Shown: piece after piece, positions 14,796-45,023 of the stretch
How the letters are laid out: every line of letters starts with the position of its first letter
Position numbering within the stretch: position 1 is the first letter of the stretch
DNA from: Podaxis mareebaensis
Taxonomy: Eukaryota; Basidiomycota; Agaricomycetes; Agaricales; Agaricaceae
Reading direction: 5' to 3'
Assembly (NCBI GenBank): GCA_018524725.1
Contig: JAEUWP010000139.1
Location: 666,863-730,862 of the forward strand
Length of the DNA stretch: 64,000 nt
Position numbers and translations under genes: made by a program
The notes under the pieces: model-generated
What the model was told of the DNA's origin: nothing
Database searches by the model: none
The model's input: only the letters and a program-made list of their open reading frames with translations

Positions 14796-16234
14796 ATGTC
14801 AATCTCCGGATACCCGTCTCACTGGCGCAGGCAATCCCTGCCCCCATACCGCAACCGGGACTCCCAAGTCTCGCCACCAAGCAACAAACCCTTTGTATCC
14901 TATTCCGTACCAGAGTACTCCACCTCACTTGAATCATCACTTCCTCCAGACCGCCGACTTGATGAAGGCCTCTGTAACGATCCCTTGGAAACGCTCGAGG
15001 CCCCATCTCCTGGCGATTTGGATGATGTGGAAGACCCGAAAATCAAGGACTGTGAATTCATCGGTTCATACTGTTGGACACAAAGAGCTAGCCCTACCAT
15101 CATTGTGCCAGGTCAGTGGGGGTATCTGTCCCTGCCACGTTACCGATCGTGAAGTAATACTGACTCTGCCACAGGATCCCCCCCAGAGTGGTTAAACAGA
15201 CGCCTGCCGTATAACGTCCAGCCTGACATGGGCATTCATTGGATCGACCAAAACAGCTATAGAATGCCTTCGGCGAACCTGTTACCATTGCTAGTTGCCG
15301 TTAATCAGAAGCGCAAGGATGAAGGGGCCCCCATGTTTCCCTGGGGCACAGTGGACTTCGTAACAGACCGCAATGGACTTCGAAAGCTCATGCGATGGAT
15401 CGCCGGCGGTGAGGTCAAGGAATTCCGTATCGACGCCCAATTGGCTGGACACAAGACGGTACTCCTCAGCCGATGGGAGAAGCGCACGCGTGAGCAATTC
15501 AATGGACGCACCTATGGCTTCAAGTTCGAGAAGGCTTCCACCACTCCAGCTGCAGGTTGCAGCGAGAGTACTGGACATCATCGCATTGTGACCTATGTAA
15601 GCACTTATGAATTCCACGTGGACAGATTGACTAGATCTCATTTCAGGACTTCAATGGACTGAAGATGGTGGTCAGATTCGAGGTCGACGCTTGTATGCCC
15701 CCACCCCGCCAACGTCACCTCAGCAAGGACGAGCCCTCTGTGGACAGCCTTGCGGACCAGATGCAGAATATGAGTCTCACGAGCACTGCCGCTCTATTCA
15801 GTTCCAGCACCATGCCAGCGTTAACTATCATCAAGGCCGGCAATTACGTTCCACAAGCAGCCACAGTAGAACTAGCAACGTGCGCAGAACACCGGAGGCA
15901 GAGCTTCAATTGGAAAGAAGGGTATCCACAACTATTCTTATCCCAGACCGGTCACCACTTCCTGGCTGTTCATTTTCGCGGACGCTTTACATCTCTGGAG
16001 AAGAGGAAGCTCTCATCTCCGGAACTTCAGGCTGTTCATAAGGAAATGCAGCCTGAATTGAAGAAGTTGCGAAAGATCCTAGAGATCATACAACGCGTTG
16101 TAATAAAGCATGGTAGCAGCGGGAGACTCAGTTTTGTTTGCTCCGATGGTCAATTGGCTGTCTACAAACGCAAGAGTCAGGCGAGTTGCCTTCCCGATGA
16201 GGCCATGTCTTGCTTCGAGTTGGAGCGCACATGA
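14796..16234 (+). CDS. DXO/Rai1-like fold protein, paralogue 1 (often misnamed GGPP synthetase)
   Basis: About 430 residues in three exons; introns follow TIIVPG and HHRIVTY. No prenyl-transferase DDxxD motif is present. The order of conserved blocks matches the DXO/Rai1 decapping/5'-3' RNA-end nuclease family: CEFIGSYCW near residue 75, the Arg motif VDFVTDRNGLRKLMRW, YGFKFEKA (GFxFE motif II), MVVRFEVDAC (EhD motif III), ATVELATCAE (motif IV, E kept but the expected Lys is Ala), YPQLFLSQTGHHFLAVHFRG (conserved Gln and substrate-loop strands), and a C-terminal helix-strand block (IIQRVVIKHGSSGRLSF, ASCLPDEA). Established: family motifs of DXO/Rai1. Inferred: homology and an RNA-5'-end-related role; catalysis is uncertain because of the missing Lys. 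Divergent from HIS1. Confidence 0.82.
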
Positions 16235-17078
16235 ATAGGTCGCGTGGCGTAATAGGAACCTCATAAACTCATAAACTCCATTCAGACCTGGTTATCTTCG
16301 GCTTTGTATACTCGTATGCTATAGGTAGTATGCACTTTTTGACATGCGTCCGAATCGGAACTTTGAACATGGTGGCCGTAGTGGTTCCAGGACGGACCTG
16401 CTTTTGTTTTTTTTGGTACATTTTCGATCCACCTTGTTCGTACTATGCTTCCTTGGCGGAATCAGGCAACACATGAATTGGACGACAGGCATGCTCTAGG
16501 ATTTTCGACCATGCTTTGGCCATGAACGTTCTTCAGGGAAATCATGACGAACATCCACCCTGAATTTCATTAGTCAGTGTCAGAAGTCCACTGTGAGAGG
16601 AAGCCATACATAACGATTACCCGTTGGACATCTACGACTCTTCTATCACACTGATCATTACCCTTGAATCCATCTCCATAGGTCCCTCATCGCAGTCGTA
16701 AGTAGCTTTGTGCTATTTCCATGCTTCATTTGCGGTTGATGACTCCCCACTCACAGGTTCGGGAGCCCATAAACGCCGCAGAAAAGTTTCGGCACGTTCA
16801 GCCTCAACTCGCAGACGCAGGGTTTGGGGCTCCAGTTTCTACACCATTCAGGAGCCATCGGAGCATACACCCTGCCAAGCTGAGCTAGCAAAGGACCGTT
16901 GTGTCCGATGGAAACTGCAAGCTTCCTCGTAATCAAGAACTGCTAACCCCGAAATGAACTCTTCTGCATGGCGGCGGCGTCCTTCAAAAACTATCAATGA
17001 GCCCATGGGACCATTCATCCTTCTTTCGCCCCTTTTGCGATCCGATAGTCCAACCCATCTCCAGCAAAATCTCGCTCT
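16235..17078. other. Intergenic region, no gene recognised
   Basis: About 840 nt between DXO-like gene 1 and an F-box gene on the same strand. Short open frames have no domain; presumably it carries the terminator of the first gene and the promoter of the second. Confidence 0.4.
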
Positions 17079-18403
17079 ATGACGGTCACGATGCCTCGCA
17101 AGAACCTCACTTTGCCTCTAGAGCTCGTGGAGAATAGCATCGACTTTTTATGTGGCGATCCGAAAGCCCTCAGGGCGGCCTGTCTAGTCTCGAGGTCGTG
17201 GGTAACCATCTGTCGCGCACATCTCTTCCGTCGCATCGTTCTCCATTGGTGCGACGATGGTGCCAGGCGTAGCGATTCCCTCCACTCCCTCCTTACCAAA
17301 GCACCTTCCGTATCCAATTACATCCGCGAACTTTCGATCCATGAAGGCCTTGTCTCTTCCGAACACGCCCAAGTCATATTCTGCTTCGCCCATAGTACAT
17401 CCCTCCCTAAACTCCTCTACCTCCTACCTCGACTCCGCCTCTTCGAATTCCGTGCATCCGCTCTAACCCACTGGTGTGAGCTCAATGCGGAGCTCGACCA
17501 TGCGGTGTTACATCTTGCCGGCTCTCCGGCTCTTGATGAGTTGATCTTAGGGTCCTGGAATTTCTCCTCTCAGCCAAAGGCACTCGAAGCCCTGTTAGCG
17601 GCTGCAGCTAAAAATGTGACAACACTAGCGTTGACGGATATAGTCACCTCCGTCATTCCTGGGGAATCTTCCGTCTCCGTTCAAATCAATGGGGTCAGTG
17701 CGTTTCGGTCTTTTTCGGCTCAGGAGCAGCGATTGGCGGTAAGGTCGTTGGCTATTAATGATGGGGCGGCTAGTTTGGTGCCGTTTTGTGCGCGTTGGTT
17801 TTATACAAGACCGAACGCCATCAAGAGGTTGCAGTTATCATGTTCGACAAACCAGACGAGTATTTCAGACCTGCTGAGGGTGTTGGGCGAGTCACTTGAG
17901 CATCTTGAACTTGATATTCGCGCTCGTACGTTATGGGCTGAATTGAGGTTGGGATGTCGTGTTCTAATCAGCTTTCAGTGCGCGAAGACGGACCTTTCGA
18001 TCTCCGATGCAACACGAGACTGCAGAGCCTGCATATACAGACATCGGAACATCCGCTGATGCCGGTCCAGAATAACATTTCCGTTCCATGGATCGTAGAC
18101 GTCTTGTCCACATTGCGCAGCTTCGAGCGCCTAGAACTGCTCTTCATCGGTTTTGGGGTTGATGCAGACCGCCTTCGTCGGCTGTCACAAACAGACGCTG
18201 ACTATTGGCGTTACCTGGATCAACTATTGTCTCCAAGAACATACCTTCGTCTACGCACCGTGCGGATTGGGATCAAATTCCATTGCCACAATGGCTCGGA
18301 GTATATCAAGGAGGCACGTCAAAGTCTGTCTAGCCTATTTGATGCGGGAATATTGGATATCTACACGGAAGCGCGGCAGTTCTGCTGTATTGACTACTGT
18401 TGA
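17079..18403 (+). CDS. F-box protein
   Basis: Likely SCF adaptor, about 420 residues. The N-terminal F-box is NLTLPLELVENSIDFL, followed by LRAACLVSRSWVTICRAHLF. The remainder is a degenerate leucine-rich body, for example YLLPRLRLFEFRASALT, SPALDELILGSW and LLRVLGESLEHLELDIRA. One 53-nt intron (17926-17978) using the second CAG joins DIRA to LREDGPFDLRCNTRLQSL in frame. The stop is at 18403 after CCIDYC. A second in-frame ATG at 17091 is also possible as the start. Substrate unknown. Confidence 0.85.
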
Positions 18404-21344
18404 TTATCAGGGCTGCTCTCGGCGGCTCTATGCAGGTGAGTTTCCACCTCCCTCCATCAACCCCGCATTCGTACCAATCCTCGTAATCTTCTCGAATATA
18501 GGAAGAGTCATCGGTACCTTTACCCCGCTTCCCCGTGCTCCTTTTGTCGGATTCCCGTCGGTCGGTATCAAATGTTTGTGGGGTATTGACATTATTGGCG
18601 CATTTACTTTAGTAGACTGATTAGAATCTGGCATTTGTTATATTTTGCTGGTGCTGTCAATTCAGTTATTGCGAAACGAGCAAATCTAAGTCCTCTCTGT
18701 GTCCACGAGAGACTGCCGTCGTGCCGAGGTCGACTTCTAATATCTCCGAGGCCTAACGCTCAAAATGGCAACTCGATGACCTTTATTGTTGCAAAGGTTC
18801 TAGACGACACATTATGGAGCCCAGATGCTGTATCTCATTAGTTATGTGGCTTTAGACTTTCAGCCCCTCGACATGGAGATATGTAAGAGATATATAGGCC
18901 TGAGATCGCGGGGCTGGATGGCAACCGAGGTGAAGAGATGAGATACAAGCCGATAAAAGGGAACTTAAGAGAACAACAAGGGTATTTACCAGCTAACTTT
19001 GCTGGGTTTGCAGGATCTGTGCCTACTCGCCGGCAAGCCATTTTGAAGAGGCAAAAGATTGCGTGGAACGACTTCCTGTATTCTTACGAGAACCGCGGGC
19101 TTTGGGCTATCAGTCGCAGCAGCGATACTGGCGGCATACTAATAGCACGAGGGACTTGGGTTCTTGGAAGTCTTCCGCGCGGTGCTCACTGGTTAAAACG
19201 TAAGATCTGGTGGCAATTAGGCCTTGCAACGGATACCGGAATCATGGATAGCACAATATACCTCGTGTTCCCTTATCTAAGGCGCCACCGGCGACAGTCG
19301 ATACACGCTGGTGAGCGCTCGTATAACATACTGGTATGTTAATCAGGTGGCTCATGAGTCGGGGTACTGGCGTGCTTCTATTCTAACTCCACCGCGAGCA
19401 GTCCGGTCATCGCACACAGCAGATAGCACGGATTTTCTCCGTTCGAGGCCTGGTGATATGTCGTTAGCCTCCAGCGACAAGAAAGCGGGCCGTACGTACT
19501 CCAATCAAGCCTCGACAGTCTCCGAAGCACAGATAGCCGGAGATACGGGATTTTGTCGGTATCAGGGGAGCGGTTCACGGCATGAGGTTACACATCTAAT
19601 CGCATCTAGTCGACTTCGACTGTCATCAAAAATAACCCAGTGATTTGTGAGAGGATGCCATATCGCAAGAGCACCGTTGGGAGCCATGGACGTGGACAGT
19701 CTATTGAGGGCGTCCAGGTCGAGGCCCGTGGGTGCTTGTTGCAGCAGCCACGAAGTGCAAGTGAGGTAGATTGGACCCTTTGTATTCGAGAGAACCTCCA
19801 AAAGGTAGTCAGATTAATCCTGCCGCGTTTTCGGACCGGAATATCGCACCTGTAACACTTATATTGAATGAAACAAGAGATTGTCATGTTCTAGGAATAG
19901 AAGGAGAACCTTTTCGCCGCGTTGAACCCAAGGAATCCTCCACATTTCGAACAGGGTAGTGTTTGACGTTGGGGTACATCAGAACGTCGTCGGATTTCGA
20001 TGTCGACTATCCCCACAACCCGGGTAGCCTGGCGAGCGTGCTCTCCCAAGAAACCCGACGGCCATTAAGGCCTCGGGCGCCGGGGGGCGAAACCCATTTA
20101 TTTGGTGAGGTAAAACTTTGGAGTGTGTTATTGTAACAATCCAGTGAAATCCAAGGATGTCGGCGAAATTGAAACGCGTGTTTCCTTGTCGGGCCGGCGA
20201 CAGGTGCAGTATCGTTCCGCCAGAGGAATTCACTCCACTCGCTTAGTATACCCCGCATTATGTAGAGACTACACCACGCAAAGCAAAGCGTCGGGAGGAA
20301 ATACTAGCTTCGGAGAAACCACGGGGGGAAGACCGAATCCAGTCGCAAGTTTTCCTTGAACACCAATTCCAGGTCCGACCATCATGCATCATGCATCAGT
20401 TTTCACAGCTTCTTCAGTATTGCCCGGTGTATAATAGGCCAAGAAACGTGTCAGCAAGCTCGCGAAAATCTCGCTGAATTACTCGCGATGGAAACTCAAC
20501 AAGCATTCACTGCTAATGGAACTTGGGTGGGTTTCACAGGTAGCGCGCATATAACCGGTTTATTTTGTCGCCGTTACGGGGCGATACTGAGTGACAGCGT
20601 CGTGCACGGGTGTTATTGATGAATACTTCACGTCGACAGCTCGTATCACCGAAACCTCTGATGATCCAAACATAAGTAACCAACCCCCACGGGTCGGAGG
20701 GCTGACCTCCCCGAGTTTTGGCGATGCGGTCCCGCCGTATGTGCATAGAAGTCGAAGTCTTCGTAGTGTCGTCGTTGCAGCAAGTGGCAAGGGTGGGATT
20801 ATTCAGGAGCTTTCCAGGCCGTCAATAGCCTAGGACACAGATGTTTCCACGACCACGAGTTGAATATCAAAGAAAGATGGCAACTTTGAGAACCAGATCG
20901 TGGCATCAACGCATCCAGCCTCCTTATGCCCGTGTGTCAATAATCGACACGTTGAATTGACACGTCAGGTAAACTACTGCGCGTGAACGTGAACGGAATA
21001 GCTTGACATTTGGGTAGCAATAACACAGGGATCGAATGTCTAGATGCTCTCCCACCAGTACAAGGAGAACACGGGGTTTCCTTGTCCTTGAGAAGCGAAG
21101 TGAGATCGGCAAGCGCGAAAAGGGGAAGAATTCCAAGTTCCAAGTTCGACATATCGCCAGGGTCATCTCGGCACCATGCGTGAAACAGCCAGATCCTCGT
21201 TGGAAAAATGTTGGCAATAGCGTGGCCTTCTGGAACTCTGGAGCACGATGCAACCTTCGAAGAACACCTGCGAAGGAACAGAGGAAAGGTTAACTTGGCC
21301 TGTTCAACGTCGAAGAAGACACAAGTGAAAATAGTAAATTGCGA

Positions 21345-21470
21345 AGAGATCAGAAGGAAGGCAACGGAAAGATCCACATGGGGTTTTGCGCTCTCGGACT
21401 GAAGAGTTTTGCAACTCGTTTTACATCCGTAATGGTTGCATCTTGTGAAAAGAAATGCCAATCAAGGAAG
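21345..21470. repeat. Diverged direct repeat, copy 1
   Basis: Begins tcagaaggaaggcaacgg and resembles 21615-21725 over roughly 110 nt; the two share tccacatg, gcgctctcgga, tttacatccgta and catcttg in the same order with similar spacing. Its origin is unknown, possibly an old mobile-element fragment. Confidence 0.65.
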
Positions 21471-21614
21471 GAAGGCGTTCATGTGAACAAGGATGTTGAT
21501 CAAACTTACCTTCAGCTACACGTCCTGTAGATGACAGGTAGTATAATAAAAGCACCTAAGCACAAGGAAGAGTATTAGAATCGAATATCCTTGCGATGAT
21601 AATGCGAGCCACAG

Positions 21615-21725
21615 GTTCAGAAGGAAGGCAACGGAAAAATCCACATGAGGTTTATGCGCTCTCGGAAATTGGAGATGAGCTCCTTTACATCCGTATTGGC
21701 TTCATCTTGCGAAATTGCAAGGTGG
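21615..21725. repeat. Diverged direct repeat, copy 2
   Basis: Partner of 21345-21470, same order of shared blocks, about 270 nt away. The two copies differ by substitutions and small indels, so the duplication is not recent. Confidence 0.65.
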
Positions 21726-22487
21726 AATGGGAACGAGACACTCACTTCAGGCAACAATTGTTCACATTAGGACTCCATGGAAGATATTCATGAAGGATTC
21801 GTGATTAGGACGAATGCTAGGCATGAACCCGTGAGCTGGTGGTGAAGGATCTCGGCGAAATTAAGCAAAATTAAATCATCTGGAAGAGTTCCTCGTCATG
21901 GTATCGCCCAGTTCAGCGCACGGTGGGTCGCAAGTAAGAGCCAAGAGGAAAAAAAAAAACAAGCAGAAAACTGCAAGGCTATGATAAGTCAACGATAGTG
22001 TCACACGATAGCACACGATGGATGTCACCTATCGTTGTGACTTAATGGTAGCCATTGGTCAACGTCAAATGGCATCCGTTCTACGGCTCCAGATAACTAC
22101 ATTTTAAAGTCTACTTAATATAAGAAATAGTCTTCAAAAAATGTCCTTCCTCCAAAGGAACGAAAGCTGTCCATCTATCTGTTCCTATATCGCACTTTCT
22201 TGGTCACATCCCTTATACAGGAAGCGGTAAAGGGTATCATGTCCTAAAGTAGCTATGCGAGAGTATGGAACGGGAGTACCAAGAAAATGGCGACAATGAA
22301 GCAGAGGAATGGGGTCGGCAATGAAAGAAAGTAGGAAAGTTAAAAAAAAAGGACGTCCAAAATGCAGGTAGGTTTTGCGGTGAAATATTGGGCTGTGTGC
22401 AACGGAGTGGGAGAAATAGGGAAGAAGCTGGACGACATGGTAATAAGAACTCATCACAAAAACCCATGATTCACACCCACTACCTCT

Positions 22488-27860: not shown

Positions 27861-28077
27861 TGATGGCGTATTCACATCACAAAACCTTGACCTACACCCA
27901 ACACTTCTTTTAATACTCGCCTCTCACTCGTCGGAGTACAATGTGCTTGGGCAAAGCGTGCCTCTTAGGGTGTTTTTGAAGTTTTTTTTTGGGCAGGACG
28001 ATAGGGTTGTCCGAGGAAACTCCATTGTCGTGAGTTTTTGGGTCCCATTGCTAGTAACGATTGTTAACTATCCTATC

Positions 28078-30271: not shown

Positions 30272-31542
30272 ATGCCACCTTCAGCGTCGCGCCCTCTTAA
30301 TCATGGATTGGATCCTGAGCTGCTACTTACAATTGAAGTGCCTAACGTCGATGTTTCATCTGAAGAACTAGAGATTAAAGATTACCGGTACATCGGATCC
30401 TACAACTGGGCAGCAGGCAGCGATCAATCCAATCCTGTCCTTGTAGTTCCGGGTACGTGGTTATTCAGATCTCTGTTGTTTCAAAACTATATCAGATCTT
30501 TTTATGTTCAGGATCGCCACCGGAATGGCTCGAAAGGCTATTGCCGATCACAGTTCCGCCTGACACAGGAACTCATTTCCGGGATCGTAACGGGCATATT
30601 CTTCCAGGAAGGCCCCTCCTTCCTCTTGTCGCCGCGGTGGTTGAGCAGAATATACAACCCGCAGTCGAGTGGAAGGCCGTGGACTTCGTGACAGATCGCA
30701 ATAGTCTTCGAAAGCTCCTGCGATGGGTTAGAGGAACCGGAAGAGATTGGCGAATTGATGCGGAACTGGTGGGGAACAAGACTGTTTTTCTGAATCGCTG
30801 GGAGCAACAGACGGTTGATCAACTTCATGGGACTATGTATGGTTTCGGGTTTGAAAAAGCGACCACTAGAACCGTCCCTGGCGGTGAAGGGATCTCTGGA
30901 CACGCACGGATCGCTACCTATGTTAGTATCGTCACGCACACATCGACCCCTTTTGACTGATGACTATGACAGGACTATGGGGGCTTAAGAGTGATCTTGC
31001 AATTTGAAGTCGATGCATACCTCCCTACAGCCCGAGGGGCTTCGACTTCGCCCACGCCAGCTGAAGCGATTGATACTCTCGCTGGAGCTGTTTCTAATGT
31101 TGACCTCTCCGGAAACGACATCAAGAGATCATTTGGTTTGGGCATTATCCGCAGGGGCAGTGCTGACATTCCGGACAATGCTATCATTGAATTGGCTACG
31201 ACCACCCGGAAACTCGACTGGAAGGAACGCTATCCCCAGCTATTCTTCTCCCAGACACCTCATCACTTTCTCGCTTGGCATGACCAACTTCAAATGGGAA
31301 CTTTTTTCCGAATCGATAAGCGAACTATAGACTGCCCTCTCTTGCAAGCAGCGAACGCGCGGTTGCAACCTTCGCTCAAGAAGCTTCGGGCAGCCCTTGA
31401 AGTCATCCAGCGGATTGTTATAGAGCATGGTCATCGTGAGCGACTGACTTTGCTCTGCATAGGCAAGCAACTTCAGGTCTATAAACGCTCGGACCAGAAG
31501 AGCTGTCTCCCGGATGAGGCTCGAGCCCTTTTCGAGACATAG
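30272..31542 (+). CDS. DXO/Rai1-like fold protein, paralogue 2
   Basis: About 390 residues. Starts MPPSASRPLNHG at 30272; introns follow VLVVPG and ARIATY. Conserved blocks in family order: KDYRYIGSYNW, GSPPEWL, VDFVTDRNSLRKLLRWV (Arg motif I), WRIDAELVGNKTVFLNRWE, YGFGFEKATT (motif II), VILQFEVDAYL (motif III), IIELATTTRKLDW (motif IV with Ala where DXO/Rai1 proteins have Lys), RYPQLFFSQTPHHFLAWHDQ, LRAALEVIQRIVIEHGHRER and SCLPDEARALFET. It is followed 925 nt downstream by a P450 on the same strand. A truncated copy of its 3' part plus the P450 is repeated about 5 kb further on. The RNA-end-processing role is inferred from the fold only. Confidence 0.82.
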
Positions 31543-34500
31543 GGATCGCCTGTCGTATAACCTAGCAAACTCTCCGATTTGTCGTTTTGATAACGCCGCG
31601 TTCCCAAGTACGCGGCGGCTTTTAGGCCAATGTATAATCGAGCGCCAGAAAATCGACCACCCTTGACCCTGTAGGCTGTCTGCCGCCTGATGGTTCTTTC
31701 AATAGTAGGACGTGTCCCTCGCCGACGATATTTTCAAAGTGCATTCTCGTTATCCTTCAGACAATAACACATTGTCGCTCCCAGCACGCTGATTGAATCT
31801 AGTTTTGCACATAAGGCATAGAACGACAAGAAAAAACATGGAGTAACCCGATGACCCTCTTCGCTTCTCGAGTGGTCTGAGGGTAAACGGGGCTGTCAAA
31901 ACGGGATGATACCGGTGGGCCTTGAACCCTAAAGACCACAGTGACTCGGCAGCGAATCTGACGTGTCTACTCGGCGTCTATTTTCGATTCGCGGTACTGC
32001 GCCTATTCAAAGAATTGGTTGCTGCCGTACTGCAAGAATCTGATATGCCAAAGATAGCATTATCCATCGAATGCTAATCCAGCCTTAACGCCTTCCCAGT
32101 CTGTGGATTATATTCATGACGAGACAAAGGCCTGGTATGCGATGAATATCACAAACGTGCCGTCATGTGTGATATTGTTTCTGCCCATTTAGATGTCCCT
32201 CTTATGCACAAAGTGGAGAAGAGTCGGGACGAGTGACGTTTCCACTCGGCAGGGTGGGGTGCGCTCGCAGGCTACTTTGCTTCTTCAATGTAACGCGATG
32301 TTATTAATATCACTGGCCTTTCAACGGTCCTTCGTCCCCATAGATCCTAGTCATGCCTCGGTACAGTATATAAGAACATCTATGGTATCCCCCTCCCCCC
32401 AATACCTTCATCACTGAAGTCACAACCTTACGCCTCAACTGAAAGTCTCGTACGACGCTGGTAGCCATGCTATCTATCCTTGTTCAGGTTTTCTCACTTT
32501 ACACGGTCTCACTGGTCGTCTGGAAGCTGTTGAAACATTTTACGACCGAGTCGTCGTTGGATATCTTACCTGGGCCACCCTCTGGTTCATTCCTTTATGG
32601 TCGGTTTCTGTCATTCTAGTGGAAGGAAGTCGAGCAATAACACTGAAATACCTTAGGAAATATTTACCAGCTGCTCGACCCTGATGGATGGAAGTTCCAC
32701 CTTCACCTCCTAAAGCGCTGTGAGTTCCTTGGACTTTCTTTTCTTTCTCTGCAGAGCTTACGGCTCATGGTTAGATGGGGGAATTGTAAGGGTTAGAGGC
32801 GCACTTGGGGTAGGGCATTCTGGCTTGATTTCATGATGTGATATTGACTGAACAAAGGAACGTGCTCTGGTGGTTTCGGACCCGAAAGCCCTGCACCACA
32901 TTATAGTCAAGGATCAATATGATTATGAGCCGATTGGATTTGTCAAGTAAGTTGCGCTTTTGAGGTTATATGTTATCAAGGATCTCATGTTTGGTCTTTA
33001 GCCGCAATGTAGTTCTTATCGGTAAAGGCCTGCTCTCCACCTTGGGTATGTCCTATACTATTCTGACCACCAAGCTTATTTTTCTCACATACCGATAGGT
33101 GAACAGCACAAGAAACAGAGGAAAATGATGAATCCCGTCTTTTCTATCAATCATATGCGCGAAATGAGTAAGTTGGATGACTGCTATCCGTCGTGTAAGA
33201 CTTATTCATGCGCCCCACAGCTCCGGTGTTCTACGAAGTGACGGAACGGGTACGTTCTAGTGGTTCCAATGGACTAGGCGTACTCATCAGACTTCAAAGT
33301 TGCGGACTACATTAACGAAAAAAGTGAAGAACGGTCCTCAAGAGATTGACATCCTTCATTGGATGACTAGGACGGCACTCGAATTGATTGGTCAGAGTGG
33401 AATGGGCTACTCCTTTGACCCCTTGGTGGACGACAAGGTGCACCATCCTTACCCCATATCCATGAAGAAGCTTGCGTGAGTCTTTCTCGTATTGGTTAAT
33501 GAAATGTGCCTGATGCACTGCTGCTTCGCCCTCCATCTAGCCGACTCCTTGGTGGGCCATTTGGCTTCTTTGTCACCAAGATCTTCTTCCCAGTAGCTGC
33601 AAAATTTGATTATCCACGCTTGAAGAGGTTCATCGTGGACCATACCCCTTGGAAACGAGTGCAGGAAATTAAGGAGTTGATTGACCTCATGCACAATACC
33701 TCTCTCGAGATCATCAGGGCAAAAAGGGAAGCTATGAACAGCAGTGATCCAGCCGTTGTCGCAGAGATAATGGAGAAGAAGGACATCATCACAATTCTCA
33801 GTACGTCGACGAGCTCGAGCTTACATCTGTGAACTGACGGATATCTCAGTGAAAGCAAATATTCAAGCAGAAGAAGAGGATCGCTTGAGCGATGAGGAAG
33901 TCTATGGGCAGGTATGTCTAGCATAATTTGATTTTCCCGCTCTAACAGTGCGTAGGTTTCGTAAGTCACTTCGAAGTGAACTATTGACTCTTACTGAGAT
34001 CACTGTTCCAACTTAGGACTTTCGTATTTGCAGCCATGGAAACAACGTCATCAGCCATGTCCCGCATCCTTCACCTGTTGTCTCTGCATACAGATGTTCA
34101 AAGCAGGCTACGCGACGAAATTCGTGAGGCTCAGAAGGACGGCAAGTTGACTTATGACCAGCTGGTTTCCTTGCCATACCTAGATGCAGTCTGCAGAGAA
34201 ACCCTCCGAGTGTAGGTGGCGAATGATCGTTAAGCATGACAGTACTTGATTTTGTGATGCAGATATCCTCCTATCAATTTTGCTCCAGTACGCACGTACG
34301 TGGTAGTCTCTTGGGGATGTATCATTATGCTGATGTTATCATGATTCAGCACACGCAAAGACATGATTCTGCCTTTGTCAAAGCCGGTTGTTGGCGCAGA
34401 CGGCAAAGAAGTGTCAGAGGTTCTGGTGCCCAAGGGTACTGATATCGTTATATCCATCCTCGGCTCGAACACAAACCCGGATCTATGGGGAGCTGATGCA

Positions 34501-35245
34501 CTTGAATGGAAACCAGAACGGTGGTTGTCACCTCTTCCCGAAGCAGTTGGGCAGGCACATGTACCTGGGATTTATTCTCATCTGTTCGTCCCGACTGTCC
34601 CACTGTATACCGTGTCATGGCAACTGATTCTTCCTGTCCAGGATGACATTCTTGGGAGGTGGTCGGGCTTGCATGTAAGTGTCTCACAAGATGCATCAAC
34701 AAAACGTCACTGACAAGATAACTTGCAGTGGCTTCAAGTTTTCGCAACTAGAAATGAGTATGTCGAGTTTCTCATCTTACAGTCCTACATTTATGCAACA
34801 AATACCCTGCAGAGGTTGTCTTGTCCGCGCTTCTCAGCACGTTCCAGTTTGAGACTTCAGAGAAACGTAAGATTACGTGGAAAATGACGAATATTGCTGG
34901 ACCATATGTCGAGGAGTTGGATCGCACGCGACCCCAGCTGCCTTTGATCATGAGCTTGGCTGATTGAAGGCCGTGCCTCCTTTGTTACTCTATGGTAAAC
35001 ACACCTTGCATCCGACCATGTTATTATGGGAGGGGGAATGCAGTTACTTGAGTATAGTCCGGCACAGTTGTTGAGCCTCTTCTCTTGTCCGTAAACATGC
35101 TTCATTGTTTCGTCTTCCCGGCCTTTTGGACGGACGTTTTCGTGTTTTATTCTTGAACCTCTCGTCGGGAGGCTGGATACATCACGCTATATACGCTCTC
35201 GCTGTCGTTACTCTTCTCGAAAATCGATGCCTTTCATGCCAATAC
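31170..35245. repeat. Segmental duplication, unit A (DXO-like 3' end + intact P450)
   Basis: Matches 36155-40590 in order and orientation: the last third of the DXO-like gene, its 3' flank (shared gtataatcgagcgccagaaa), the P450 with identical intron positions, and the P450 3' flank up to the cgggaggctgga/cgggaggctaga block. Unit A holds the functional version of both genes. Confidence 0.9.
32467..34967 (+). CDS. Cytochrome P450 monooxygenase
   Basis: Microsomal P450 of basidiomycete CYP type, about 550 residues and more than a dozen introns. The N-terminal membrane anchor is LVQVFSLYTVSLVVWKLLKH, followed by the hinge LPGPPSGSF. Seen later: EQHKKQRKMMNPVFS (helix C), I-helix FVFAAMETTSSAMSRILHLL, K-helix ExxR (CRETLRVYPP), EWKPERW, and the heme loop MTFLGGGRACIGFKFSQLEM with the Cys ligand. 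An intron splits the heme loop just after the Cys codon. Every splice junction I checked stays in frame and the stop follows LPLIMSLAD, so this copy looks intact. The substrate is unknown. It sits beside DXO-like gene 2 and is paralogous to the dead copy at 37762-40261. Confidence 0.9.
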
Positions 35246-36105: not shown

Positions 36106-36523
36106 TATGGACCAGACCCAATGGAAGACGCTGTTGAACGAAGCTCGTCTCCCCTGTCCGCTATCATCGAGTTGGCTATGACCACCTGGAAACTCGACTG
36201 GGAGGAACGGGTATCCCCAGTTATCCTTCTCCCAAACGTTACGTCGCTTCCTCGCCTGGCATGACCAACTTCAAGCGGGAACCGTCGCCCAAACCGACAA
36301 GCGAACCATAGACTGCCCTCTTTTGCAAGCAGCGAATGCGCGGTTGCAACCTTCGTTCAAGAAGCTTCGGGCAGCCCTTGAGGTCATCCAGTGCGTTGTT
36401 ATAGAACATGGTCATCGTAAGCGACTGACATTGCTCTGCACAAACAAGTGGCTTTGGGTCTATAAATGCTCAGACCAGAAGTGCTGTCTCCCGGACGAGG
36501 CTCCGGCCCTCTTCGAGGCATAG
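36106..36523 (+). pseudogene. Truncated, frameshifted DXO/Rai1-like copy
   Basis: Corresponds to the last third of DXO-like gene 2: the motif IV strand, the PQ block and the C-terminal block (recognisable KKLRAALEVIQCVVIEHGH and CCLPDEAPALFEA). A 1-nt insertion near 36209 (gaacgggtatcc against gaacgctatcc) breaks the frame in the PQ block, a stop replaces the downstream segment in the first frame, and the N-terminal two thirds with motifs I-III are absent. Non-functional remnant at the start of unit B. Confidence 0.85.
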
Positions 36524-36784
36524 GGATCGCTTGTCGTATAACCCTAGCAGACTCCGATTTGTCGTTTTAAATAACGCCGCGTTCCCGAATACGCGGTGGC
36601 TTTTAGGCCAATGTATAATCGAGCGCCAGAAAACGACCGCCCTTGATTCTGTGGACTATCTGCTGCCTGATGGTTCTTTCGAGAATACGTGGTGTCCCCC
36701 GCCGATGATATCTCCAAACTCCATTCTTGTTGCCATTTCGGACAATGGCGCATTGTCACTTCCAGCACGCTGATTCAACCTAAT

Positions 36785-37205
36785 TTTTGTATCTTTTTCT
36801 TACGCTATGTCGTACGGCGCAACGAAATGGAATTTTCACTAGATAGTACAGGTGCGATGCTGCGAGTGGGGTGCTAGGCGAGTCCACAGAGCGAGGAGGG
36901 GTGGGTGAAAGCCCGAGTGGCTGTCAACATGGATACCGGGGGGCTAAGGCGAAGCACCGTGGGCGGGTCGGGCCGCTCATGGCGAGCTTCCCCCCTGCAG
37001 GTACTATAAAGCCACGGGTCTGCGCAGGCACGGAGCGGGTATCCCTGGGATTAGTGGGTGGGGCGAAAGTTTCAGTGCCAGCCAGTAGCCGCAGCGGACC
37101 AACGTGGTAGTAAAAGACGAACCTCGGGTGCCGCCGTGACTGTGATGCTGGTCCAAAGACCTCATTCTGGTGTTTCGTAAGTCCTCACCCACTGGCGGCA
37201 GATTC
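36785..37205. other. GC-rich insertion unique to unit B
   Basis: In unit A, attgaatctagttttgcac runs directly into ataaggcatagaacgacaag. In unit B the equivalents are separated by about 420 nt that are GC-rich and stop-poor in several frames. I found no long ORF, no terminal repeats that I could confirm and no obvious target-site duplication. It could be a small non-autonomous element or a captured fragment; the loss from unit A is the alternative. Confidence 0.55.
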
Positions 37206-37761
37206 TCGCATAAGTCATCGAACGACAAGAAAAAAATAATCACGGAGGAAACCGGGCGATCTTCTTCGCTTCTCCGGTTGTTTGACAACAAGTAGTGTTG
37301 AGGACGTGGGATGAGACAGGTGAGACTATAGTATCTTCGTAGAGAACCTGACGTGTCCCCTCTGTATCTCTTTTCGATTCGCGGTACTGCATCTATTCAA
37401 AGAAACTGACCGATGACGTGCCGTGAGGATTAAATATACCAAAAATAGCATCATCCATGGAAAGTCAATCTGGGCTTAATGTCTTCCCCAGTTGGTGGGC
37501 TAGACAGAAACTTGGATGGGTACCCCGACAGTCCCACCGGTCGAGTGGAAACGCTTCAAGAATAGTGATCCTTACCATCCGGGTACTCTGCTTCTCCAGC
37601 ATAAAGCAATACTATTCATACCACAAGCCCTTCGACTACCCTTCGTTCTCACATACTCGGTGCGGTATATGAGGCCATCTGTATGTCCCTGTTGCAATAT
37701 CCTCATCAGTGAAACCTTACTCCTACGCCTCGACTGAAAGCCTTGTATGGTGCTTGTAGCC

Positions 37762-40261
37762 ATGTTGTCTACCCTTGTTCAAGTTTTCTCACTTTACACG
37801 GTTTCGTTGGTTGTCTGGAACTTGCTGAAACGTTTTACGGTCGAGTCGCCTTTGGATATCTTGCCCGGACCACCCTCTGCTTCATTCCTCTCTGGTGCGT
37901 ATCTGTCGTTTTAGTGAAAAGGAGCTGAACGCTGAGCGGTGACGCCGGGATACCTTAGGAAATATTCACCAGCTGCTCGACCCAGATGGATGGGAATTCC
38001 ACCATCGTCTCAAGCGCTGTGGATCCCTCAGGCTTTCTTGTTTCCTTTTTCTCCACAGAGCTCACAACCCATGACTAGATGAGGGGATCGTGGAGGTTAG
38101 AGGAGCACTTGGGATAGGGCACTTTGCCTTGATTTCTTGACATGACATTGACTGGGAAAAGGACCGTGCTCTGGTCATTTCAGACCCAAAAGCTCTCCAC
38201 CACATTATAGTCAAAGACCAATATAATTATGAACCAATTGCATTTGTCAAGTAGGTCGCATTCTTTGAGATTGTGTATTGCGAGAATCTCACGCTCGGTC
38301 TTTAGCCGCAACGTAGCTCTTCTCGGTAAAGGCTTGATCTCCACCTTGGGTAAGTTCTCTCTATTCTGATTACCAAGTATATTTTCTCACAAGTTGATAG
38401 GTGAACAGCACAGGAAACAGAGGAAAATGATGAATCCCGTCTTTTCGATCAATCATATGCGTGAAATGAGTAAGTTGGATATCTTCTGTTCGTAGTATAA
38501 GGCTCATTCACGTATCTTACAGCTCCTTTGTTCTACGAAGTGACAGAACGGGTATGTGCCAGTAGTTCCTCAGGACCAAGTGTACTCATCAGATTTCAAG
38601 TTGCGGACTACGTTGACAAAGAAAGCGAAGAATGGCCCTCAAGAGATTGATATCCTTCATTGGATGACTAGGACGGCACTCGAATTGATTGGTCAGAGTG
38701 GAATAGGCTACTCTTTTGATCCCTTGGTGGACGATGAGGTGCATCATCCTTACCCTATATCCATAAAGAAGCTTGTGTGAGTCTTCCTCACATTTGTTGG
38801 TGAAATGTGTCTAACACATTAGTCCTTTGTCTCTCCTCTAGCAGGCTCCTTGGTGGGCATTTCGGCTTCTTTGTGGCCAAGATCATGCCGGTAGCTGTAA
38901 AATTCGATTATCCACGCTTGAAGAGGTTCATTATGGAACACACCCCTTGGAGACGAGTGCAGGAGATCACAGAGTTGACCGATCTCATGCATAATACCTC
39001 TCTTGAAATTATCAGGGTCAAAAAGGAAGCTATGAATAGCAGTGATCCAGCTGTTGTTGTGGAGATAATGGAGAAGAAGGACATCATCACAATTCTCAGT
39101 GTGTCGACAAGCTAGAGCTTACGTCTACGAACTGACGGGCATCCCAGTGAAAGCAAATATTCAAGCAGAAGAAGAGGATCGCTTGAGTGATGAGGAAGTC
39201 TATGAACAGGTATGTCTGACATCGATTCACTTTCCTGCTCTAACACTGCATAGGTCTCGTAGGTCACCTTGAAGTGAACTTTGACTCTTACTGATACCAC
39301 TGTTCCAATGTAGGACCTTTGTATTTGCAGCCATGGAGACAACGTCATCAGCACTGTCCCGCATCCTGCACCTGCTGTCTTTGCACACAGATGTTCAAAG
39401 CAGGCTATGCAACGAAATCCATGAGGCTCAGAAGGACGGCAAATTGACTTATGACCAGCTGGTTTCCTTGCAGTACCTAGATGCAGTCTGCAGGGAAACC
39501 CTCCGAGTGTAGGTGGTGAATGATCGTTAGGCATGACACTACCTGATTTTGCGATGCAGATATCCTCCTATCACTTTCGCCGCCACCCGCACATAAGTGG
39601 CTATCTCTTTGGGGCATATCATATGCTGATGCTATTGTAATTCAGGGCAAGCAAGGACATGATTCTACCTTTGTCAAAGCCAGTTGTCGGTGTAGACGGC
39701 AAAGAGGTGTCGGAGATTACGGTGCCCAAGGGTACTGATATCGTTATATCCATCCTCGGCTCGAACACAAACCTGGATCTATGGGGAGCTGATGCACTTG
39801 AATGGAAACCGGAACGGTGGTTATCGCCTCTTCCCGAAGCGGTGGGGCAAGCGCATGTATCTGGGATTTATTCTCACCTGTTCGTCCCGACTGTCTCGCT
39901 GTATACCGTGTCATGCAACTGATTCTTCCTGTCCAGGATGATATTCTTGGGAGGTGGTCGGGCTTGCATATGGGTGGACTCACAAAGTGCATTAACAATT
40001 GTCAATGATGGATAACTGTGCAGTGGTTTCAAGTTTTCGCAGCTGGAAATGAGTATGTCAAGTTTTCATCCCTACAGTCCTACACTTATGCGACAAATGC
40101 ATTGCAGAGGTTGTCTTGTCCATGCTTCTCAGCACACTCCAGTTCGAGATTTCAGAGAAACGAAAGATTATGTGGAAAAAGACGGATATGCTGGACCCTA
40201 TGTGGAGGAGTTGGATCAAACAAGGCAACAGCTGCCCTTGATCATGAGCCTGGCTGATTGA
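37762..40261 (+). pseudogene. Cytochrome P450 pseudogene (duplicate of 32467-34967)
   Basis: Same exon order as the intact copy and still recognisable at the anchor (MLSTLVQVFSLYTV), AMETTSSALSRILHLL, CRETLRV, EWKPERW and FLGGGRACI. Lesions compared with the intact copy: an in-frame TGA at about 38072 in the exon after the hinge; the donor of that exon changed from GT to AT (38114); a 1-nt deletion near 38595 before KLRTTL; a lost donor at about 39592 (ataagt for gtacgt); and a changed donor after the heme Cys codon (cat-atgggt). Several independent hits indicate a dead gene, not a sequencing slip. Confidence 0.85.
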
Positions 40262-42814
40262 AGACCGTGTCTTCCTGCCTCTCTTAGTAAACACACCTCG
40301 CACTTTTGCAGAAATAGTGGATAGTCTTAACTTGCATTCGACCACGTTATTGTGGGAGAGACAATGCCGTTACTCAAGTACAGTCCGGTACAATTGTTCA
40401 GCCTTCTCTCGCCTGTAAATATACTTCTATGTTTTGTTTTCCCACTGTTTGAACCAGGCATTCTCGTGCTCTATCCTTAAACCCCATAATCTCTCCTCGG
40501 GAGGCTAGATACACCACGCATGGTGTGTATCAGCTCTCACTAGGATTACTCCTCTCGAGAATAACACCTTTCACGTCAGTTTTTGCTGCCTCACAATTGT
40601 CCTGAGCGTACTAGTGACTCCTCGGCAGGTTTATGAGGAGTGTGTAGGAACGGAAGTATGGTCCAAGACCGGGTAGTGAAGCTCTCCGGCTCCCGGAGTT
40701 TCCCATGCCCTCGGTGCTCGGGAATATCGACGAGTCATTGAAGCTCGACACAAGGTGCAAAGAAGCCGGGGAGAACAGCGGAGAGGTATACTGTCACGTA
40801 ATGAAGCCTCTCAAGCGAGTGGCAAATATAGATATGGAGAAACACTTAACTCTGTTTGTCTTGAGGGCCCTACACACCAGGCAGATTTGAGCCATGCTAT
40901 TGCTCATCCTGGTTATTGTTGTTCCACATGTGAGTGACATCAATCACAACGAAATCCCGGGTGGCGTAGCTTCGCATCCCTGCTTTCTTTGCCTCCGTGA
41001 ATTAATAATCAAGGAGCGGTTTTTTCGCTTTAATTCTGATGTTCTAGTCGAAACAGTTTCACCATCCGAAAAACACCCGCCTTGCTCTCTCTGCTCTCCG
41101 ATCAACAGATTGAAATGAACAGCTTACAGGTGCGACGAAGAGTTCTTATTTAACCATAATCTTGTGCTCGTTTGAGCCCCCACGTTGGGTCATATACGTC
41201 TGCAAGATCATCAATGATGGCTCTGGTGATTAGCTAGGCATCAAAGCAAAGCACTTGCGAGTGACGGGGTAATCATTGTTGGGTGACCATCCTGAACGAA
41301 TTTTGTTATCCATTCTGCAAATCTAGTTCGGGTCAGAAAACCCCAGTTGTAAGGGAAGGCCCCTATGAGGGATTGGCCAATAACATAGCCACAATACTTA
41401 GCACAAAATTCAATATCGCATGTCCTCCGGCGTAGATTTTCGGCAGTCATGCAGTTGAAATCAGCTAATGACCCGAACAGGTTACTCCCTACTTCGAGCT
41501 TCATGTGGCTTTGTGAACATATAAGTCGTGTTCGTAGCACCTGAGACGTGCTTCTTCACCAGTTGGTTATCTTCTATCTCAGGTGTATTGTAAAATATAT
41601 CTATCACACATATTTGACATCGCGATTGACGTCAGTCGGACGATATAATTTGGCAGATTCAAACAGTCGAAAGATGATATTACAGCATGAACCTCACTGT
41701 CCAGCCGCCTGGGCTTCTGGACCGGCAATCGAATGCCAAATACCGTTGCATGGCGGTGTCACTGGTAGGCAGACTCGAAAGAGTTTAAGAATGTTTTTAA
41801 AATATGGTAGTCAACATGAAGTCTTCAGGTTGAAACCGAGAACTAAAAGTTACCTGATATCAGAAGAGTATTGATGCTATTTAAAGCTTCTGCTTCATCA
41901 GAACCGTGGAGTAATATTACAGGGCTTCGAATTATTTGATCTAGATGAGGGAAACCCACATTGGGGATAGCAAAAAACTCAAGAAATGCTCTAATGCACG
42001 ATTTGATAGGATGCTGTTCAATTGGGGAATAGCCAGGAAAACTGGTTGAGAATGCCTACGGCTGTATTGAGTCCATTGCTCGGAGGTGCCAATCCGGTGT
42101 GGGTATGGTCATATTCAGTGCTGCGGGATTGTGTCCCTGCGAGGGACGTCGTCCGCCCGAAGCTATTGAAGACCCGGAACAATTGTGATTGACAGCGCGT
42201 ACCAATGCGTGAACGTCAGCTCCTATTTCCTGCCCATTCCCTCCGTTGGGGTGTCGACGTAATTCTGGTTAATGAAGTTTGAGGATGAGCCTGAGGTCCA
42301 TGCACTGATTGATCCACTCATCGGCACAACCTCAGATAAGTCGAATGATAGGAGCCGATCGAAAACCTAGCTGGCACAAACTTTGTAGGTAAGCGTTTGA
42401 TTACTCGATTCCGATGCGACTAGCAGTCGGTGCTGTCCCTAGATTAATTAAAGCGAAAGCTTCTAGTGAAGTAGTAGCCCTATAGCTTTTAGTGACATCC
42501 GAAGATCCGGAACCCTTCAAATGGAGCCTCGTGCTTTGGATACGTACGGTTCCAAAGTTAACAGCAGAAATGCTTCGGCTGCATCGTTGAAATGATCCCA
42601 AACATGGGTAACTAACTGACCTATAAAGGCCGCATGAAAACTGCTGGGGCTCCTCAGAATCCAAAGCACCTCGCTCGAGTAAGTGTGGTTTCACCATAAC
42701 CAACGGTATTGAACTGACTTGTTTGATCGCCAGTTGGAAACTCTTGCTTTCATTGTAGGCTCACCTCGACTGGCCTAGGAATGCTGCCGCTAACGTGTCC
42801 ATTCTAGATACAAA
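40262..42814. other. Gene-poor interval before the secreted protein
   Basis: 40262-40590 is the unit B 3' flank. Minus ORFs at 41241-41540 (99 codons) and 42401-42703 (100 codons) are open but match nothing I know and have no clear partner exons. The remainder is AT-rich and shows no structure I can name. Confidence 0.4.
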
Positions 42815-43051
42815 ATGAAGTTCACCGTCGCTCTCGCTCTCGCTGCGTCTCTCTTCGCCACCGTCTTGGCGAACCCCGTTGAGGGTGTCACTGAGATCGG
42901 TGCTCGTCAGGCTCCTAATTGCTTCTGGAGCGGCACCGCACCCTTCTGCGCTGGCTCTTGCCCCGCAGGCTACATTGACAAGGGCACTGACTCCTGTGGT
43001 GATGGCGCTTGCTGCGTGACTGGATACAAGAAATATTGCTGCATGTCCTGA
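42815..43051 (+). CDS. Small secreted cysteine-rich protein
   Basis: Intronless 78-residue protein. Signal peptide MKFTVALALAASLFATVLA, a short pro-like segment (NPVEGVTEIGARQ) and a compact domain with eight cysteines in 46 residues, arranged C-x8-C-x3-C-x11-C-x4-CC-x8-CC and ending CCMS. All cysteines are in the mature part, so four disulfides are likely. Glycine- and aromatic-rich spacing (GTAPFCAGSCPAGY) suggests a small disulfide-rich fold. The function is unknown; proteins like this in fungi are extracellular and may act in cell-wall, interaction or defence contexts. The ATG at 42815 directly begins the signal peptide. Confidence 0.82.
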   Translation: MKFTVALALAASLFATVLANPVEGVTEIGARQAPNCFWSGTAPFCAGSCPAGYIDKGTDSCGDGACCVTGYKKYCCMS

Positions 43052-43324
43052 ACGACTCGCAGCGGTGGTGGGAGTGTTGAAGAATGAAGGAAACAAGAGC
43101 CTCTTGACTCGTACTTCGTATCGTGTATCTTGCGTCTTGTGTGTTGTGTTTCTTGCAGGATCTGAATGTAGCGTGTTTCTCCAAATCTTCTTTGCCCGGA
43201 AAGCACCGGGCGCCGTCCACCAGGCTTATAGCGACAACACTCAAAAGATGAGGGGCTAATTTAACCGCCATGACTGGTCTCCGTCGTCGTTCCTAGTGGT
43301 GAGCGCTGAATTTTGGGTCGGGCT

Positions 43325-43450
43325 TGACTGTTCTCGGATTGCGATCAGCATCGGCTAGGGTCATCAGCAACTGGGAACTGATACTGTGCTGCCCTCACCA
43401 TATGTGATTGAACAAAGTTCTTGAATTTCACCGCACATCGAATTTCCATC
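43325..43450. repeat. Upstream block shared with 35387-35510
   Basis: About 120 nt that resembles the sequence upstream of the truncated DXO-like copy. It lies 150-280 nt before DXO-like gene 3, so it may be an old shared promoter or 5' flank of this gene family. Confidence 0.6.
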
Positions 43451-43601
43451 TCGCTGCACTCTTCGTGGTTCGAAGTATGCTTTGCTACATAACCCTTTGG
43501 GACATTCCTGTCTCGGTCCTATTTCTGTTCGCGCAGCAACGCCACACCAGCTTCCCAGTACTTCGTAAGAATAACACCAGAAAGTTCGTAGACACTCCCC
43601 A

Positions 43602-45023
43602 ATGGTCGTTTTTCTTCCTCACTATTCGATGACTCCTGGTATGCAAGTCTATAAAAAGTTGGTCGTTTCGGTCACTCAAACATCCCGCACCGTACTCGAC
43701 ACAATGCAAGCACGCTCCAAGTTGGATGGGCTGAGCGAGCCTCTCTGTACTATCAAGGTACCCGATCCGGACCCCGAAATTGCTGAACGTACTATGGACC
43801 TGCTCGAAGACTGTCGCTACATAGGCTCTTACGACTGGGTCCCGGACGCGGAAGAAGATGACCCTGCTATCGTTGTACCAGGTTTGAAGTCCCCCCAAGA
43901 ACCTCCCTGTATGGGATGAATTGTTGACCAGTGATCCTATACAGGTTCTCCCAACGTCTGGATCAACCCCACGCTCCCTCTCACAGTTCTTCCCGACAGA
44001 GGAAAACAGTTCCGTGATCATAACGGCTATATCCTCCCCGGCCAACCTCTCCTACCTCTCTTAGTGGCTGTCAATGAACAACAGATCTTCCCCCGTCAAG
44101 ACTGGAAGACGGTCGACTTCCTGACTGACCGCAATGGTCTTCGCAAACTCCTTCGTTGGGTCACCCAGGCTAGTGGTCGGAATGACTTCCGCATCGATAC
44201 GCAATTAGTTGGGAAGAAAACAGTCGTTCTCAATCGCTGGGAGCCAAAGACAACTGGATTTGTGAATGGGAGCTCGTACGGATTTAATTTTGAGAAATTT
44301 ACTACAAAGCCTATGCCACCCGCTACTGAGCGATCCGCATGGCATCATCGTATCGTCACATACGTGGGTTTGTTTTCCTTATTTAGCCGGTCGGTAATCT
44401 AAACGTTGCTTCGGTGATTACCACAGAAATTTGGTCGCTTCAGGATGGTCGTCCAATTTGAAGTCGATGGCTGTCTGTCTGAGGACCAGGCAGCCTCGAA
44501 TTCGCAGGAAGATGACGAAGTCCTTATCAAAGCCATGGAAAACATGGGACTTTCAAACCAAAAAACGTCGTCCACCGCTGCGCCAACTTCTGAAGCCAAA
44601 AGTCCGCAGCAGAGGTCGAGCGTCTTTGGTTTGAAGGTCCACCGCCGAGGCAACGCCAACATCCCTCATTCGTCCATCCTCGAATTGACGACGTCGACAA
44701 AGAGGGTGGACTGGAAGGACCGCTACCCCCAGCTTTACTTTTCGCAGACTGGAAACCACATTGCAGGACGCCATACGAACGGGACGTTCCACACAATAAA
44801 TATCGTGCCTTTATCGTCTATCCAGTGCCAGAGCGCCATCGCTAATTTACAACCGTCACTCAGGAAGCTCGAGGAAGCTTTGAGACAGATCCAGTCTATC
44901 GTCATCGAGCATGGGAAGGAGGAGCGTCTCAGTTTGGTGTATGAGAAGCCGAATTTGATGGTTCACAGGAGACTGGAAAGTTCAAGTTGCTTCCCACCTG
45001 AAGCTCTAGCGCTGTTTGACTGA
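43602..45023 (+). CDS. DXO/Rai1-like fold protein, paralogue 3
   Basis: About 435 residues from the 43602 ATG. An in-frame ATG at 43704 (MQARSKLDGL) aligns better with paralogue 2 and may be the true start. Introns follow AIVVPG and HHRIVTY. Blocks: DCRYIGSYDW, VDFLTDRNGLRKLLRWV (Arg motif I), FRIDTQLVGKKTVVLNRWE, YGFNFEKFTT (motif II), MVVQFEVDGC (motif III), ILELTTSTKRVDW (motif IV, Thr where Lys is expected), RYPQLYFSQTGNHIAGRHTN, and IVIEHGKEERLSL with CFPPEALALFD at the end. A linker of about 55 residues between motifs III and IV is Ser/Gln-rich and variable among the three paralogues. No P450 follows this copy. Confidence 0.82.

Follow-up and report, generated by a model that had tools for sequence, protein, structure and literature searches.

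The DXO/Rai1 decapping nucleases, which process the 5' ends of RNA (PF08652; mouse DXO, yeast Rai1 and Arabidopsis DXO1), are the described system closest to the genes reported here. The family to which these genes belong shares with them the predicted fold, the Arg, the acidic residues and the Gln, whereas it lacks the motif IV Lys on most of its Agaricomycete side, carries Asp in place of Trp131 and possesses a linker of 59–72 residues before motif IV. In DXO, the motif IV Lys (Lys255) touches the scissile phosphate and possibly activates the water, as described in the available parts of PMC7293010 and PMC13213243. The cap-binding domain of eIF3d is reported to be non-catalytic (PMC7293010, available text), while the present family keeps its acidic residues. 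Pet127, the mitochondrial 5'-3' exoribonuclease, is a PD-(D/E)XK RNA enzyme whose relationship to DXO is one of remote homology only (PMC9014873). Several other PD-(D/E)XK proteins (DUF1626, DUF506, BamHI, BglII and MspI) have the signature Lys replaced or moved and the carboxylates kept, and in DUF1626 it is often replaced by Thr (PMC1913061, PMC4081073, both in part). No description of the family was found among the open-licence papers listed in the searches.

Three DXO-like genes in the window

The window, which is the whole stretch of 64,000 nucleotides analysed, contains three DXO-like paralogues (A, B and C) on the forward strand, each composed of three exons and two GT-AG introns (50–63 nt) at matching positions. 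Both the splicing and the motif positions confirm the loci given in the original prediction. In addition, a truncated copy of the last exon of B is detected by tblastn, matching B at 80% over 102 aa (36212-36517) and 61% over 28 aa (36133-36210).

14796..16234, + strand: gene A, DXO-like, 441 aa, motif IV ELAT; exons 14796-15111, 15175-15596, 15647-16234
15875..15877, + strand: motif IV Lys place in A, Ala (translated codon)
30272..31542, + strand: gene B, DXO-like, 386 aa, motif IV ELAT; exons 30272-30452, 30512-30921, 30973-31542
31195..31197, + strand: motif IV Lys place in B (residue 272), Ala (translated codon)
31264..31266, + strand: His295 of B, candidate Lys substitute; corresponding positions 15956-15958 in A and 44757-44759 in C
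36133..36517, + strand: truncated copy of the last exon of B, 3' part only (tblastn with B)
43602..45023, + strand: gene C, DXO-like, 431 aa, motif IV ELTT; exons 43602-43881, 43945-44363, 44427-45023
44688..44690, + strand: motif IV Lys place in C, Thr (translated codon)

The true start of C may be the Met at 43704, giving a protein of 397 aa; this Met aligns with the points where B and the contig C194 paralogue begin.

The three proteins carry the same blocks in the same order, namely TDRN with the Arg, YGFxFE with the Glu, FEVD, ELxT, YPQLF/Y-x-SQT and a C-terminal LP (FP in C). These blocks had been equated with motifs I–IV and the Gln strand of DXO/Rai1; the order of the motifs holds, but the Gln sits in a helix and not in a strand. 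Profile and hand alignments agree that the counterpart of the DXO Gln is the Gln of YPQ, not that of SQT. The replacement of the motif IV Lys (Ala in A and B, Thr in C), the retention of the acidic metal ligands in all three copies and the expansion of the family are likewise borne out. A separate Rai1 gene with an intact motif IV is present in the same genome.

Predicted fold and relationship to DXO/Rai1

Predicted structures of database relatives that are 76–77% identical to B and A adopt the DXO fold, and not the non-DXO fold that would have spoken against the original prediction; C is assigned by sequence only. Structural alignments of these models to DXO/Rai1 give 10–18% identity, and the next closest fold is that of eIF3d. 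A Foldseek search against viral models gave no match at E up to 0.001. The three proteins almost certainly share a fold derived from DXO.

Profile comparison agrees with this assignment. Using hhalign, the family profile (135 rows, including the window copies) aligned with the canonical Rai1 profile (121 rows) with a score of 56.2 (E 5.6e-6), and with a trimmed Rai1 profile with a score of 55.8 (E 3.9e-6). For the trimmed comparison, none of 100 column shuffles exceeded 30.2 and reversing the profile gave 11.7, and the similarity between the family and Rai1 exceeds chance. A profile built from the three window proteins reached E 0.005 against canonical Rai1, and a single ascomycete sequence gave nothing (E 0.2). 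The PDB sequence search with the three-protein profile found no relative, its one match being a de novo protein (E 0.82).

The hhalign alignment joins the motif I Arg with WRG of Rai1, whereas the two motif IV segments are not paired in it, a misplacement that counts against our preferred explanation; motif IV is assigned from strand order and position and from the ascomycete relatives. The Pfam RAI1 model (PF08652), scanned against exons 2–3, gave 18.5 bits for A and 17.7 bits for B, both below the 26.8 cut-off, and no Pfam match was found in C at E up to 1. These results are likewise counted against our preferred explanation. Among 114 relatives, four carry Pfam RAI1.

Active-site residues across the family

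Relatives were collected in two lists of 114 and 55 proteins, which are incomplete because only about 8,000 candidates were scored for each. The sets used comprise A2 (39) and A3 (109) from the list of 114, A5 (30) from the list of 55, A4 (21 from the best 120 of 610 matches) and A6 (80 family proteins). The family tree and alignment contain 153 rows: the three window proteins and 150 others, which were left from 168 family proteins once 18 short, partial or odd ones had been dropped; 47 rows fall on the ascomycete side and 106 on the Agaricomycete side.

The residues that hold phosphate and metal are conserved across these rows. The motif I Arg (Arg132 of DXO) is present in 153/153, the motif II Glu (Glu192) in 147/153, the motif III Glu234 and Asp236 in 150/153 and 152/153, the motif IV Glu (Glu253) in 151/153 and the motif V Gln (Gln280) in 147/153, and the three window copies all retain motifs II and III. 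The motif IV Lys (Lys255) shows a different distribution, being present in 53 rows and absent from 100. It is found in all 47 ascomycete-side rows and lost from 100 of the 106 Agaricomycete-side rows, while in canonical Rai1 it is missing from a single row of 121, which has a gap there. All six other residues (Arg, Gln and four acidic) are intact in 86 of the 100 Lys-less rows; the 14 rows without at least one of them are counted against retained catalysis. Because Lys-bearing and Lys-less relatives mostly share the remaining site residues, the family forms a natural experiment on whether a PD-(D/E)XK nuclease needs its signature Lys.

Two further features distinguish the family. The place of Trp131, the bulky hydrophobic residue that precedes the Arg in DXO/Rai1, is occupied by Asp in 145/153 family rows vs Trp in 120/121 canonical rows (one gap). 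Motifs III and IV are separated by 59–72 residues, compared with 15 in the genome's own Rai1; this long linker could gate the channel in the family, which is counted against catalysis.

Residues that might replace the lysine

A compensating Lys or Arg was looked for, as the original prediction advised, and none was found: the basic residues examined also occur in Lys-bearing relatives or are unconserved. Arg131 (B numbering) is present in 94/100 Lys-less rows, yet it also occurs in the Lys-bearing tips of the Agaricomycete side (Arg in five of six, Lys in one). Two positions after the Lys place, Arg stands in 74/102 of the A3 rows and also in 23/47 ascomycete-side rows, whereas A has Cys, B has Thr and C has Ser. 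For DUF506 and DUF1626, a shift of the basic residue into the next helix has been suggested (PMC1913061, PMC4081073, available text), whereas the family's helix Lys281 is not conserved, being Lys in 37/109 A3 rows. All three positions were rejected as general substitutes.

His295 of B occurs in 85 of 100 Lys-less rows, with 15 lacking it, vs none of the 52 Lys-bearing rows that have a residue at that place. The tree provides three independent Lys contrasts on supported branches; His differs in a mean of 1.4 of them, each time in the direction expected. The controlled tree test was not significant (median p 1), and fewer than six pairs cannot reach 0.05. Covariation between the Lys position and His295 ranks 543 among 59,340 pairs when every row is used and 6,855 once the ascomycete side is removed. 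His295 tracks Lys loss in raw counts only, and is a lead rather than an established compensating residue. It is rather unlikely that Agaricomycetes rebuilt the DXO site by losing Lys early in their branch, close to its base, with a His on the neighbouring strand taking its place, giving expanded RNA 5'-end nucleases with a metal/His site, the Trp-to-Asp change and a 5'-end specificity beyond that of Rai1.

Probable retention of catalysis and alternative explanations

The overall DXO/Rai1-like interpretation is supported, comprising the fold, motif order, acidic residues, Lys loss, misleading name and expansion, while no compensating Lys/Arg was found. We consider it moderately likely that A, B and C are members of a DXO/Rai1-derived fungal family predicted to bind metals and to cut RNA close to the 5' end. 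Given the DXO fold, catalysis is probably retained. The phosphate-holding Arg and Gln and the four acidic residues of the two-metal site are conserved by computation. Two metal ions would still be bound, with RNA hydrolysed near its 5' end and the water activated mainly by metal 1. The role of the motif IV Lys, whose contact with the scissile phosphate in DXO is counted against catalysis, may have been dispensed with or passed to another residue, His295 being the best candidate. The favoured 5' end would differ from that of Rai1, because the family has Asp where DXO has the Trp that contacts the cap. Such proteins would be candidates for unusual RNA cap handling in mushrooms, alongside canonical Rai1.

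The strongest alternative, which we regard as possible but doubtful, is a binding-only derivative that keeps the DXO pocket for RNA 5' ends or nucleotide cofactors and has lost cutting, as reported for eIF3d and Cutoff, both called non-catalytic homologues in the available text of PMC7293010. The widespread Lys loss and the rank of eIF3d as next closest fold agree with it, as does the long III–IV linker, given that a stretch occupies the RNA channel in eIF3d (PMC10165153, in part). Loss of acidic residues, which we infer from the same part of PMC7293010 to be an eIF3d/Cutoff-type feature, is absent in all three window copies. We lean towards an enzyme.

An enzyme with this fold but with a substrate other than the RNA 5' end, for instance DNA or a dinucleotide cofactor in free form, is improbable. 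The pocket does differ, given Asp in place of the cap-side Trp, but the phosphate-binding Arg and Gln are retained, and some ascomycete relatives bear CCCH zinc fingers.

The remaining reading, a real geranylgeranyl pyrophosphate synthase, has next to no chance and is already refuted at the fold and family level: the relatives are predicted to have the DXO fold, the polyprenyl synthase domain (PF00348) has no match in the three window proteins (exons 2–3) or in 39 and 30 relatives, and the genome's PF00348 matches sit on five other contigs. The source names do carry the label "geranylgeranyl pyrophosphate synthetase", as the original prediction stated, on at least 35 of 114 relatives in the first list and at least 7 of 55 in the second. 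At least 2 of the 114 are labelled "Decapping nuclease". In all, 42 or more of the 168 collected relatives bear an unrelated enzyme's name, and this conceals a family whose members are likely to be RNA 5'-end proteins.

Six copies of a DXO/Rai1-like gene

By predicted fold and motifs, the window genes A, B and C belong to a fungal DXO/Rai1-like family. The original prediction of three paralogues at 14796-16234 (A), 30272-31542 (B) and 43602-45023 (C) was correct: a gene is present at each position, composed of three exons with GT-AG introns, and the intron positions match. A and C share 49% and 51% identity with B, respectively. Among the matches listed, their closest proteins belong to Macrolepiota, Leucocoprinus and Leucoagaricus; the Macrolepiota relatives of A and B (P0001 and P0003) have locus tags 10 apart and apparently lie on the same contig. 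A tandem duplication of about 4 kb (31220-34894 to 36201-40189; listed pieces 79-94% identical) carries the 3' end of B together with further downstream sequence, and in its second copy the DXO-like gene is represented only by the last-exon part. Three further members are found on other contigs of the genome, two of them as a neighbouring pair.

36133-36517: 3' remnant of one more family copy, within the tandem duplication
C194:18714-20008, minus strand: D (locus L020), sharing 71% identity with C across exons 2-3
C311:33739-34970, minus strand: E (locus L021), adjoining F
C311:38614-39980, minus strand: F (locus L021), adjoining E

E and F represent a more divergent type (E-I-D, ELST, TNRN). 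In a quick maximum-likelihood tree, calculated with the motif IV columns excluded, A falls with the usual Agaricaceae form. B and C are placed together in a clade of their own (SH-aLRT 97), where the branch leading to C is long.

Relationship to DXO/Rai1

The family is a non-standard DXO/Rai1 member, since the motif IV Lys and the Trp are replaced and the Pfam threshold is not reached. A and B match Pfam RAI1 below the cut-off, and the scan of C gave no match; at E <=0.01 the domain is found in 8 of 39 scanned relatives (best E 1.1e-11) and 11 of 30 on the ascomycete side (best E 1.3e-9). Aligned by hhalign with the canonical Rai1 profile, the family profile scores 56.2 (E 5.6e-6). With a trimmed Rai1 profile the score is 55.8, against at most 30.2 for 100 column shuffles and 11.7 for the reversed profile. 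Smaller profiles gave weaker matches to 21 canonical Rai1 proteins: E 3e-4 for 109 of 114 relatives, 4e-5 for 30 of 55 ascomycete-side relatives, 0.005 for the window proteins and 0.2 for a single ascomycete sequence. The ascomycete and Agaricomycete sides constitute a single family (profile comparison E 4.5e-88).

The alignments pair the Arg of DRN with that of WRG, the Glu of YGFxFE with that of YGYAFE, and E-x-D with GEVD; one also pairs YPQ with the YFQ of Rai1. The two motifs IV were not aligned by hhalign, because the preceding linker has 59-72 residues in the family versus 15 in the genome's own Rai1. Motif IV is instead identified by its place, on a strand that both predicted models put after the motif III strand and before the Gln helix, and by E-h-K at that place in 47/47 ascomycete-side rows. 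The Gln, originally assigned to a strand, is located in a helix in both models. A zf-CCCH zinc finger occurs in 2 of 30 scanned ascomycete-side relatives (P0129 among the relatives), a domain content that hints at RNA binding.

Among the matches listed, at least 35 of 114 and at least 7 of 55 relatives are labelled "Geranylgeranyl pyrophosphate synthetase". In line with the original doubt about this label, no polyprenyl synthase domain was found in the scanned members (the three window proteins, exons 2-3, and 39 + 30 relatives), and the genome's PF00348 matches lie on five contigs other than the window's. Since "Decapping nuclease" is used for 2/114 and RAI1-like for 3/55 of the relatives listed, the RAI1 link is not wholly new to databases.

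Active-site residues and loss of the motif IV Lys

In DXO, the equivalents of six residues bind two metals and phosphates, and Lys255 touches the scissile phosphate and may activate the water, as described in PMC13213243 and PMC7293010. Among 153 rows (150 database family proteins plus A, B and C), the Arg is invariant (153/153); the motif II Glu and the Gln each occur in 147 rows, the motif IV Glu in 151, and the motif III Glu and Asp in 150 and 152, respectively. All six residues are kept in each of A-F. They occur together in 136/153 rows and in 86/100 Lys-less rows. At the Lys place itself (B residue 272), Thr is commonest (72 rows), followed by Lys (53), Ala (10), Ser (9), Val and Gly (4 each) and Cys (1); translations of D and of E and F read Thr and Ser there, respectively. 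The DXO Trp touching the cap moiety is Asp in 145/153 family rows, whereas the canonical Rai1 rows (this genome's copy and 120 relatives among the matches listed) keep Lys and Trp each in 120/121, with one gap apiece. On contig C7, the genome's own Rai1 reads ELKTS at motif IV. In an ungapped hand alignment, an Arg invariant in canonical Rai1 (121/121) pairs with the His at B residue 300, which is conserved in both branches of the family.

On the tree, Lys is present in 47/47 ascomycete-side rows and 6/106 rows of the other, mostly Agaricomycete, side, requiring at least six changes; the placement of four long rows (P0108, P0166, P0167, P0168) is insecure, and for P0108, P0166 and several other rows on both sides, which are metagenome records, the side is assigned by the tree alone. 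Most simply, the mostly Agaricomycete side would have lost Lys close to its base, with a few regains; Lys may alternatively have been lost several times.

Some columns are conserved across the Lys-less rows without being so on the ascomycete side. One of them holds B His295, a candidate compensating residue on the strand that follows the Gln helix; in the PD-(D/E)XK fold this strand adjoins the motif IV strand. His occupies this place in all six copies A-F, in 85/100 Lys-less rows and in 0/52 Lys-bearing rows having a residue there; canonical Rai1 has Ile or Val (ungapped hand alignment from the Gln). With relatedness controlled, the association with Lys loss is not significant, owing to too few independent changes, and covariation did not single out this pair.

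Predicted function

The family is probably a metal-dependent RNA 5'-end nuclease of altered specificity. Active enzymes with the signature Lys replaced include BamHI (Glu), BglII and NotI (Gln) and MspI (Asn), as listed in PMC4081073, and in DUF1626, where Thr replaces Lys, the basic residue is proposed to have shifted to the helix that follows (PMC1913061). The main rival is that A, B and C are binding-only derivatives. Precedents are RecC, which lost its catalytic features and gained a binding role (PMC1185551), and eIF3d and Cutoff, described as non-catalytic DXO homologues (PMC7293010).

Judged from codon comparisons, the Lys-less proteins are not in decay. Nei-Gojobori dN/dS is 0.11 (exon 2) and 0.15 (exon 3) for C-D, and 0.17 and 0.15 for two parts of E-F, values that are rough because dS between these paralogues is near 1. 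B and its truncated copy give 0.36 over 105 codons.

Neighbouring features

11280-12389, minus strand: NCA2 domain (E 5.3e-9)
13467-13955, minus strand: HisG (ATP phosphoribosyltransferase) exon adjoining A (Pfam E 1.8e-29)
17058-18059, plus strand: F-box-like, weak match below cut-off
about 39000-40200: stretch in the duplicated segment whose run-on translation presumably resembles part of a cytochrome P450 (motif)
42794-43051, plus strand: short Cys-rich open frame just upstream of C, with a signal-like, secreted-type start by eye; no match in a Pfam scan
57986-59113, plus strand: leucine-rich repeats
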